64,000 bases of DNA, taken from NCBI RefSeq assembly GCF_016862115.1, contig NZ_BOMI01000123.1, positions 1 to 64,000 of the forward strand. Direction: 5' to 3'. The first letter of the stretch is position 1. Each line of letters opens with the position of its first letter. The notes under the pieces were generated by a model, which was given only the letters and a program-made list of their open reading frames with translations, was not told where the DNA came from and searched no databases. A program made the translations under genes and the position numbers. Of the stretch, positions 29,939 through 35,864 are shown piece by piece. This DNA is from Paractinoplanes deccanensis. GTDB taxonomy: Bacteria; Actinomycetota; Actinomycetes; Mycobacteriales; Micromonosporaceae.

Positions 29939-33317
<3,379 letters not shown>

Positions 33318-33365
33318 GGCAACTCACAAACCTTTACGGGTCAGTCGGTCCGGTACTTGAGCAAC

Positions 33366-33399
33366 AAAAAAGGCCCTCGTGCGGGAAAGCACGGGACCT
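33366..33399 (-). terminator. Attenuator terminator of ilvBNC
   Basis: On the minus strand AGGTCCCGTGC pairs with GCACGAGGGCCT (one bulge, one mismatch) around TTTCCC, and is followed by TTTTTTGTTG. It lies 49 bp upstream of ilvB and downstream of the leader peptide. Termination here would shut off the whole operon. Confidence 0.8.
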
Positions 33400-33400
33400 G

Positions 33401-33438
33401 GCGCACTCTGGTCGGCAGCTCAGCCGACGGGAGTGCGC
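33401..33438 (-). promoter_or_regulatory. Pause/anti-attenuator hairpin of ilvBNC leader
   Basis: GCGCACTC / GAGTGCGC (8 bp) and the inner GTCGGC / GCCGAC (6 bp) form one long stem around AGCTCA. It begins at the base next to the leader-peptide stop codon and ends one base before the terminator stem, as expected for the first structure of an attenuator. A ribosome stalled at the Val-Leu codons would disturb it. Confidence 0.75.
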
Positions 33439-33468
33439 TCACATAAGTACTCGGGACGCGAAGCACAT
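33439..33468 (-). CDS. ilvBNC leader peptide MCFASRVLM
   Basis: A 9-codon frame (ATG to TGA) preceded by the strong binding site GGAAGGTGG five bases upstream. It contains Val (GTA) and Leu (CTT), both codons rare in this GC-rich genome, just before the stop. Downstream are the pause hairpin and the terminator ahead of ilvB. Slow decoding of the rare codons under branched-chain amino acid shortage would favour read-through into ilvBNC. Confidence 0.75.
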   Translation of the reverse strand: MCFASRVLM

Positions 33469-33521
33469 GGGAACCACCTTCCCGCATCTCACGCGGTGAG
33501 TCAACTGATCCCACATTTTGA

Positions 33522-35864
33522 TCACTCGGTGGGCTCACCCGTTCGGGCGTCGAACGCGGGGTCGGTCGGCAGCAGGGCCCTGAGCTGCCGCATCCCGGGC
33601 CCGAGGGCCACCACCTGACTGCGCGCGGGCAGGTCCTTGGGCGGCGCCGGCTTGGGCGCGGGGAGGGTTCTTGTGCCCGTGCGCAAGGTCTGCAACTGCG
33701 CCTCGAGATGCTCGGCCGGCACGCCCCAGCCGAACAGCGAGCCCTGCCCGAGCCGGCAGCCCGCCTCCTCGACCACGGCCCGCTGCGCCGGGGTGCCGAT
33801 GCCCTCGGCCAGCACCTCGAGCCCGAGCCGGTGCCCGATGCGCACGACGACGTCGACCAGGGGCGCGGCCGTGCCCGTGCGCGACTCGGGCTCCGCCACC
33901 AGCGCATGGTCGATCTTGAGGATGTCGACCGGCAGCGTGCGCAGCTGACCGAGCGACGAATAGCCCGCGCCGAAGTCGTCGAGCGCGATCCGCACACCGG
34001 TCGCGCGCAGCTCGGCGAGGCGGCTGATCAGCTCCTCCATGTCGGTGGCCACCGCGTGCTCGGTCACCTCGAGCACCAGCCGCTGCGCCGGGACGCCGTG
34101 CTCGGCCAGCACGTCGGCGACCTGCCCGGCGTAGTCGACGGCGTGCAGCTCCTTGGGCGACAGGTTGACCGAGACCCAGACGTCGTGCCCCCGCGACAGC
34201 CAGTCGGCGAGCTGCACGCAGGCCTGTTCGAGCACCCAGGCGCCGATCCGGTTGATCAGGCCGGACTCCTCGGCGACCGGGATGAACTCGTCGGGGCGCA
34301 CCGCGCCGAGCGTGGGATGGTGCCAGCGCAGCAGCGCCTCGGCGCCGACCGGGCGCATCGACGGCAGCGCCACCACCGGCTGGAAGACCAGGCGCAGCTG
34401 GTCGCGGTCGATGGCGTGGCGCAGCTCGCTCTCGAGCGTGCCGCGGCGGCGCAGCAGCTCGTCGTAGCGGGCCTGGTAGCGCTCCACCCGGTTCTTGCCG
34501 CGCTGCTTCGCGTAGCGCAGGGCGAGGTCGGCGTCGCGGATCAGCTCGCCGGTGTCGGCCACGCCGATGCTCGCCGACAGGAAGACCGAACCGCCGTCCA
34601 CCTCGTACGGCTCGCAGAGCACGGCGAGCAGCCGGTGGGCGGTCAGCATCGCCTCGTCGGCCGTGCCGCGCATGAGCACCGCGAACTCGTCGCCGCCGAG
34701 CCGGGCCGCCACGTCGCCGTCGAGCAGGTTGCGGCGCAGGCGCTCGCCCACCTCGACCAGCACCGCGTCGCCCACGTCGTGGCCGCGCATGTCGTTGACC
34801 GTCTTGAAGCCGTCGAGGTCGATGCCGACCAGCACCTGGGGCTCCTCGGCGGCGGCGAGCGCCTCGCGCAGGCCGCGGCGGTTGGCCAGCCCGGTGAGCG
34901 GGTCGGTGTGCGCGAGCTCGCGGAAGTGGGCCTCGCGCTCGCGCAGCTCGAGCGTGTAGTGGCGTACGTCCCGAAGGGCCAGCCATTGCCGCCCGACCAG
35001 GGCCAGCCCCACGACGCAGATGCCGAGGTAACCGTAGAGGTCGAGGGTGCCGCCCCGGGCGAGGTGATAGCCGAGCGCGGACACGCCGGCCACGATCGGC
35101 ACGACCGCGAAGGCCGGGTTGCTGCGGTCGGGCACGTCGCCGACCACCTCGACCGGCCGGTCGGCCACCTCGACGGCGCGGGCGATCACGAAAAGGCCCG
35201 CCGGGAGCAGGAGGGCGCCGGCCAGCACCACGCCGTCCTGGTCCTGGCAGATGCCCGAGGCGATGGCGACGGCGGCGAAGGCGACGAACGTGACGCCGCT
35301 CGCCACCCGTACGGTGATCAGGCGGGGACGGTGCGCGTGCATCGCCAGGACGATGGTCAGGCCGAGCGAGGCGACGGCGAGGCCGGCCGGCACCACCACC
35401 GACAGGCAGGCCATCGGCGTGGCGTCGCCCAGGACGCGGGTCGGCTCGACCAGCAGCACCCAGCCGACGAACCAGATCGCCGCCGCGACGACCAGCCCGT
35501 CGAGCAGGCGCCGGACGGCCACGCCCGGTGTCTCGGCGGCACCGGGCAGCACGGCCGTGCCGACGAGCAGCACGAGGACGCCGATGGCGGTGCCCGCGGC
35601 GACCGCGGTGCCGAGGCTGATGCGCGGCGGCTGGGCCGTGGTGATCAGCACACTGATGACGCCGGCCAGGGCCGCGGCGGTGACGATCGCGCCGCCGGCG
35701 GCCAGCATCAGGTGGGCCCGGCGGGCGGCTCCCGTGTGCCGGCGGCCCGAATTGCCCAGCAATGCGACGGCCGGGACCGCGACCAGAAGGCCGAACAGCC
35801 CGGCCAGCTCCACGCCGGACGGTGATTGCACGGAGACACTATGCTCGATCTCCGTCGATTTCAC
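33522..35864 (-). CDS. Membrane-anchored GGDEF-EAL protein
   Basis: A 780-residue protein. Residues 15 to about 290 hold seven or eight hydrophobic segments. The GGDEF domain follows ([46 protein letters not shown] at about 388-397), then the EAL domain (GAEALLRW at about 507-514, [32 protein letters not shown]). All motif residues for c-di-GMP synthesis and hydrolysis that I can check are present. No PAS or other cytoplasmic sensor is seen, so the membrane part may sense the signal. It is divergent from ilvD and lies upstream of the ilvB leader. Confidence 0.9.

Follow-up and report, generated by a model that had tools for sequence, protein, structure and literature searches.

Attenuators of the trp and leu operons of Escherichia coli combine a leader peptide, begun at a Shine–Dalgarno start, with few or rare regulatory codons and a terminator. 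The ilvBNC operon makes branched-chain amino acids, in a bacterial group known for many natural products. Candidate ilvB leader peptides and terminators were predicted in 2005 for Corynebacterium, Mycobacterium and Streptomyces (PMC1262725; here and below, papers with a PMC number are cited for excerpts of their text), and an ilvB uORF motif has been described for Corynebacterium (PMC10272879). In the logic set out in the excerpts of PMC13236596 and PMC11857589, a stalled ribosome allows a hairpin to arise, with read-through as the outcome; one that has reached the stop codon prevents that hairpin, and transcription terminates. In M. tuberculosis, changing four codons (LVVI) to Ala abolished induction (PMC13236596), and in C. 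glutamicum, where the ilvB leader is handled as a leaderless mRNA, the closest homologs share the control codons CUU and GUA (PMC11857589). The ilvL leader of S. lividans (MRTRILVLGKRVG) gives a leaderless transcript by RNA-seq (PMC8079986), and substituting possible regulatory codons in the S. coelicolor ilvB leader left regulation unchanged, as cited in PMC1262725.

The window analysed here, a whole stretch of 64,000 nucleotides, carries on its minus strand ilvB (acetolactate synthase large subunit, 31485..33317, ATG start at 33317; NCBIfam PRK07789, 1123.8 bits), ilvN (acetolactate synthase small subunit, 30973..31491; NCBIfam PRK11895, 233.8 bits) and ilvC (ketol-acid reductoisomerase, 29939..30976; NCBIfam PRK05479, 559.3 bits). 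The closest named IlvB proteins among the matches listed, those of Paractinoplanes ovalisporus and Actinoplanes solisilvae, show 94% identity, and by these listed matches the host is assigned to Actinoplanes or a close relative. Upstream on the same strand, a GGDEF-EAL gene (33522-35864, minus) stops at 33522, with 53 bases left to the leader ATG; ilvD lies beyond it on the opposite strand. Between the end of this gene (33522) and ilvB (33317), the minus strand holds promoter-like boxes, a nine-codon ORF, a hairpin and a terminator. The ORF, MCFASRVLM (33439..33468, minus), reads ATG TGC TTC GCG TCC CGA GTA CTT ATG TGA from 33468 down to 33439, a rare Arg codon, CGA (33451..33453), preceding the presumed regulatory codons GTA for Val (33448..33450) and CTT for Leu (33445..33447). 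Hairpin 1 (33401..33438, minus), a candidate antiterminator or pause hairpin of 8+6 bp around a 2x2 internal loop (GCGCACTC-CC-GTCGGC-TGAGCT-GCCGAC-CA-GAGTGCGC), has its first base right after the TGA, 12 nt past the first base of GTA. One base 3' of it comes an intrinsic terminator (33366..33399, minus), with arms AGGTCCCGTGC..GCACGAGGGCCT in a hairpin at 33399-33371 and a run of six U (T run 33371-33366). For the 183-nt leader stretch the folding energy is -80.4 kcal/mol, whereas 200 dinucleotide shuffles average -61.2 (sd 4.3), giving z -4.5. A plain scan reports one terminator-like site, that of the ilvB leader (shuffles average 0.5), and none between the end of the GGDEF-EAL gene and this leader. 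Against Rfam, the window yielded two tRNAs at gathering score and nothing else, no leader family being among the hits. Re-reading of the minus strand confirmed all the letters described in the original prediction at their places, including the hairpin adjoining the leader stop codon and the six-U terminator before ilvB; its main claim, that a short leader peptide serves an attenuator of ilvBNC, is upheld by the ORF, the hairpins, the operon genes and the leaders of relatives.

Judged from its letters, the window leader is thus an actinobacterial ilvB leader-peptide attenuator, of a kind already known, and what we add is the extension of this switch to Actinoplanes and its family. The resemblance to ilvL of Streptomyces lividans and S. 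coelicolor extends to the gene, the operon, the GTA CTT core, the order of hairpin and terminator, and the promoter spacing, with 7 nt from the -10 box to the start and a leaderless start as published (PMC8079986, PMC1262725, excerpts). Differences lie in the length of the peptide (13 codons in Streptomyces, nine in the window), the codon before GTA (Leu CTC there, Arg CGA here) and the stop codon, which precedes hairpin 1 in the window but lies inside it in a Streptomyces locus (L062). The MRTRILVLGKRVG peptide with its 7-base spacing recurs in many Streptomyces loci of the named set (best 80 of 584). The ilvBNC leader of Corynebacterium, with its ilvB-II motif, likewise has a short leader, GUA with a neighbouring Leu codon, and a hairpin followed by a terminator; the model published for it, on which the likeness rests, comprises three hairpins overlapping at GCC, whereas the window and its relatives have no clear exclusive overlap (PMC11857589, PMC10272879, in the parts cited). 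As for M. tuberculosis ilvB1, it too has a uORF with GUA, a hairpin and a terminator, and its regulatory codons were shown to be needed, but it displays a run of four (LVVI) where the window has V-L, and its U run ends at +126, against about +103 in the window if the RNA starts at the ATG (PMC13236596, excerpt). The hairpin that published models term antiterminator has the position of hairpin 1. The trp and leu attenuators of E. coli have the leader peptide, the few or rare codons and the terminator in common with the window, but their exclusive pairing of a shared segment is not seen there.

Relatives were represented by 224 loci: 144 stretches from the window organism's own family (window + 29 + 114) plus a named set of 80 ilvB loci (best 80 of 584). 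The named set is not confined to other families, since about ten of its members are of this one; some family stretches and named loci come from one genome (L090/L004 and L212/L006, for example), and as the loci are related the counts below are not independent events. Leaders were delimited by a parser for which the -10 box had to contain an A and a T; it allowed only spacers of 16-19 and start distances of 4-10, and took ORFs with GTA first. It found TTGAC, 17-18 nt and xAxxxT in 213 of the 224 loci; no promoter-to-start fit was obtained for the other 11 (L199, L218, L223, L009, L013, L015, L032, L056, L065, L068 and L070), among which L009, L015 and L065 have fewer than 60 bases before ilvB and L013 has 186, L199 being shortened by the coordinates chosen. 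Among 200 family genomes, DNA similarity matched the leader in 146 at E <= 0.01, and a covariance model built from 50 aligned family leaders, nearly all taken from these same 200 genomes, matched it in 196 (182 of the 184 that are complete and clean), twice in two genomes and once in all the others matched. The four family genomes without a match to the model are G005, G025, G030 and G054. The first two are incomplete (69% and 80%), G025 having a short DNA match to the leader; G030 and G054 are 98% and 95% complete, and their attenuator may be absent or altered. Without any choice of ORF, GAGTACTT followed by the T run occurs exactly once in 129 of the 144 family stretches (the window having been entered by hand). 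The same layout is present in 72 of the 80 named loci (best 80 of 584), which include Actinoplanes, Micromonospora, Salinispora, Dactylosporangium, Blastococcus, Pseudonocardia, Amycolatopsis and Nocardia, as well as Rhodococcus, mycobacteria, Streptomyces, Kitasatospora, Actinomadura, Planomonospora and Nocardioides. Given the DNA and RNA-model matches across family genomes, the element is, by these sequence comparisons, not a product of chance. Some family loci (L204, L210, L211, L212, L213 and L214, with L006, which comes from the same genome as L212) have a leader peptide of 22 codons, the usual length being 9-12; these long leaders share the R-V-L end, so that the end of the peptide alone is kept.

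We consider it quite probable that the locus works as a ribosome-mediated transcription attenuator of ilvBNC, with its leader peptide read from a leaderless RNA. The first transcribed base would be that of the ATG at 33468 or lie one or two bases from it; a ribosome would load at this 5' end and translate the nine codons. Were branched-chain aminoacyl-tRNA in short supply, this ribosome would stall with GTA (then CTT) in its A site. Its leading edge would extend no further than the foot of hairpin 1, leaving hairpin 1 free to form, and the polymerase would read through. With a good supply, the ribosome would move on to the stop codon and there mask the 5' arm of this hairpin, so that transcription would end at the terminator before ilvB. 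The parts, their conservation and their fixed spacings are directly visible in the DNA. Ribosome stalling and the direction of control would follow by analogy with the mycobacterial and corynebacterial publications, and both fixed spacings fit their logic of stall, hairpin and read-through (PMC13236596, PMC11857589, excerpts). The identity of the attenuator is well supported, although the ineffective codon substitutions in S. coelicolor (PMC1262725, excerpt) and the weak -10 box of the window count against the reading; the antitermination step ascribed to hairpin 1 is a proposal.

Conservation of the codons is strict. GTA is present in 211 of 213 leaders, a best-case count as the parser favoured ORFs with GTA, whereas it makes up 57 of 3992 Val codons (1.4%) in ilvB itself (about 1,700 bases from each of the 80 named loci, best 80 of 584); the two exceptions have GTT (L201) and GTC (L075). 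Of the 211 leaders with GTA, 172 continue with CTT and 209 with some codon for V, L or I, so that the two regulatory codons are constrained even at the third base, and the free drift to non-Val/Leu codons that the original prediction had named as contrary evidence is absent. The second codon after GTA is variable in the family: ACC (77), ATC (32), ATG (9), AGT (9), ATT (4), CTT (4), CTC (3) and others (2). GTA and CTT are indeed rare in this genome, as had been claimed: in six reading frames of the window they account for 4 of 288 Val and 6 of 314 Leu codons. The further step, that rarity adds sensitivity where there are only two codons, finds no support. The longest V/L/I run is two in 91 of 140 family leaders and in 5 of 71 named ones (from the best 80 of 584), but GTA is also present in 59 of the 60 leaders with at least four such codons in a row; rarity is therefore no compensation for having two codons. 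That step is opposed, too, by the retention of CGA, an Arg codon, by the tRNA that CTT shares, and by the theory of Elf and Ehrenberg, which, in the excerpt of PMC1183508, calls the rare-codon rule an oversimplification and derives sensitivity from tRNA supply versus demand, rarity as such giving none. A structural reason for GTA at the RNA level was rejected: in the free leader its mean pairing is at most 0.5 in 133 of 211 cases, and, GTA being not consistently paired, a reason tied to decoding is favoured.

One such reason would be that GTA, CTT and CGA, if decoded slowly, set the time that the ribosome spends on these three codons before the hairpin, rather than refining the sensing of Val and Leu. 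All three core codons of the family are rare synonyms, including CGA, which codes for no branched-chain amino acid and stands before GTA in 129 of 140 leaders of the family, its place being taken by CTC in the remaining 11. The draft assembly codes for tRNA-Val with anticodons UAC, CAC and GAC; in it, neither tRNA-Leu(AAG) nor tRNA-Arg(UCG) was found, so that CTT would be read by tRNA-Leu(GAG), shared with the common CTC, and CGA by tRNA-Arg(ACG). Against this explanation, the named loci (from the best 80 of 584) mostly have the common CTC before GTA (54 of 71), and slow decoding is itself predicted from tRNA genes and codon counts. We take it as a tentative idea, with somewhat less than an even chance of being right.

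Geometry, too, is constrained. In the 211 leaders with GTA, to which the hairpin statistics apply, the distance from the first base of GTA to the start of hairpin 1 is 11 bases in 123 and 10-15 bases in 207, while the stop codon varies in position from 9 to 48 nt from GTA. The gap between hairpin 1 and the terminator is 0-1 nt in 207 of 211 (35% in shuffled regions), and the region of hairpin 1 is stabler than its shuffles (z < -2) in 204 of 211. A consensus fold supports both hairpins, with changes on both sides in 4 of 11 pairs, all of them in hairpin 1, the five terminator pairs being nearly invariant; it derives from an alignment of 50 of a non-redundant list of 52 loci drawn from 140, in which leaders longer than 125 bases were excluded, two outliers (L215, L224) were left out and one row (L190) was shortened by the T-run rule. 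A ribosome's footprint ends some 12 bases past the first base in its A site. A ribosome at GTA would consequently end at the foot of hairpin 1, and one at the stop codon would cover bases of its 5' arm. The retention of GTA across dozens of genera, and of set intervals between it, the hairpin and the terminator, places precise and testable constraints on how such leaders function. Neither this broad rule for GTA nor either of the fixed spacings was found stated in the parts of the literature searched, mostly non-subscription papers. The RNA-seq work of Wolf et al. in 2017 reportedly concerns Actinoplanes SE50/110 and may already report the leader in a relative.

How hairpin 1 would act on the terminator is where readings diverge. 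In one version of attenuation, the base of hairpin 1 extends into the first 3-4 bases of the terminator, so that completing either hairpin precludes completing the other; such an overlap, GCC, has been proposed for C. glutamicum (PMC11857589, excerpt). Upstream bases do pair with the base of the terminator better than chance: -4.75 against -3.68 (sd 0.28) for shuffles in the family (32 distinct pairs), and -3.69 against -3.04 (sd 0.23) in the named set (36 distinct pairs, from the best 80 of 584), 0 of 50 shuffles reaching the real pairing in either. Before the 3' arm emerges, moreover, the terminator base in the window has an occupancy of 0.36 when the ribosome sits on GTA and of 0.002 when it sits on the stop codon, the family medians being 0.24 and 0.10. 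Yet cognate partners pair no better than swapped ones (-4.75 vs -4.82 in the family, -3.69 vs -3.75 in the named set), and in 71 named loci (from the best 80 of 584) the median occupancies are alike, 0.12 at the stall and 0.13 at the stop. The full transcript retains its terminator in all ribosome states at nearly all loci. The mean pairing probability of the terminator base exceeds 0.5 in 208 of 211 leaders when the ribosome is placed on GTA (family 138 of 140, named 70 of 71), in 211 of 211 when it is placed on the stop codon and in 204 of 211 without a ribosome, although the hairpins, having been located by folding, are paired by construction. The equilibrium folds of the 211 leaders thus give no sign of an exclusive antiterminator. 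An overlapping base is accordingly a possible account of the antitermination step, but one that we rather doubt.

The fixed distances themselves call into question the need for an exclusive antiterminator, and another account dispenses with it: with the ribosome halted at GTA, a hairpin lying flush with the terminator would block the last pairs of the latter in the RNA exit channel, the spacings acting as a ruler. A ribosome at the stop codon would melt hairpin 1 and thereby free the terminator. If true, one device would serve ilvB across Actinomycetes, but we hold this account to be unlikely.

Less likely still is that the leader is a largely constitutive partial terminator, amino-acid control being exerted elsewhere, for example at the conserved promoter. 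The absence of any effect of codon changes in S. coelicolor (PMC1262725, excerpt) goes in this direction, as does the conservation in the family of TGGGATCAGTTGACTCA-N5-TGAGATG around the -35 box. The strict conservation of GTA followed by a V/L/I codon goes the other way, and so does the loss of induction upon codon change in M. tuberculosis (PMC13236596, excerpt). Further, TTGACTCA-N5-TGAGATG has its sole full match in the genome at the ilvB leader (three places at no more than two mismatches), so that no regulon is seen.

The promoter boxes bear upon where the ribosome begins to read the leader. The -35 box TTGACT (33499..33504, minus) is followed after 17 nt by the -10 box GAAGGT (33476..33481, minus), itself 7 nt before the start codon. 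Among the fitting loci the spacer is 17 bases in 161 and 18 in 52 (213 of 224, the named loci being the best 80 of 584), and xAxxxT lies 6-8 nt before the start codon in 212 of 213. The promoter-to-start pattern passes in 1.3-1.4% of dinucleotide shuffles (TTGAC to GTA in the 211 fitting loci with GTA). Family -10 boxes (n=141) are CAGGCT in 63, CAAGGT in 20, CAGTCT in 16, CAAGCT in 15 and others; elsewhere TACCGT is found in many mycobacteria and Nocardia, and TAACGT in several Pseudonocardiaceae. To be sure, GAAGGT shares only two of its six letters with TATAAT, and scanning 33300-33700 for the consensus reported neither this box nor any other sigma-70-like promoter. The same letters belong to GGGAAGGTGG, which resembles a Shine–Dalgarno sequence (anti-SD energy -12.1 kcal/mol) and had been taken for a strong ribosome site. 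In family leaders, the median energy at this place is -2.5, and it is -8 or lower in only 2 of 141, so that GGGAAGGTGG is not conserved as a ribosome site; its letters sit where relatives have their -10 box. Such a spacing is the one that separates a -10 box from the first transcribed base, which most likely places the 5' end of the RNA on the start codon or one or two bases away; the leader peptide is then probably translated from a leaderless RNA, as this spacing and the two relatives with a published leaderless start suggest. Comparison with relatives thus turns an apparent ribosome site into a promoter box, a correction that we offer for the start of the leader. That the RNA instead comes from further upstream or from the GGDEF-EAL gene, whose nearby same-strand end without a terminator would let read-through RNA carry GGGAAGGTGG as a working Shine–Dalgarno sequence, is very doubtful despite the strong pairing of the site and the poor fit of the -10 box to consensus, given that the site is unconserved, that the promoter-to-start spacing is kept far outside the family and that leaderless starts are in print for two relatives (PMC8079986, PMC11857589, excerpts).

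Around the -35 box, at 33485-33515 (minus), TGTGGGATCAGTTGACTCA-N5-TGAGATG is conserved in the family beyond what a plain promoter displays, the columns of AGTTGACTCA and TGAGATG being kept at 90% or more. CTCA..TGAG forms an inverted repeat between the -35 and -10 boxes.

Another helix, which joins the codon and stop region (33435-33453, minus) to 33353-33362 in the minimum free energy fold of the leader, was dropped as having a general role, there being no gain over shuffles: -7.07 against -8.53 in the rest of the family, and -9.47 against -9.44 in named loci outside the subgroup. That subgroup consists of the Actinoplanes-like leaders, in which GCTCAAGTAC, immediately 3' of the U run, is a possible partner for the codon and stop region, at a mean of -12.9 kcal/mol against -8.0 in shuffles (25 distinct leaders, a comparison biased by defining the group through GTTGCTC). 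In these folds the GCTCAAGTAC helix would arise in read-through RNA only, and it is kept as a lead.
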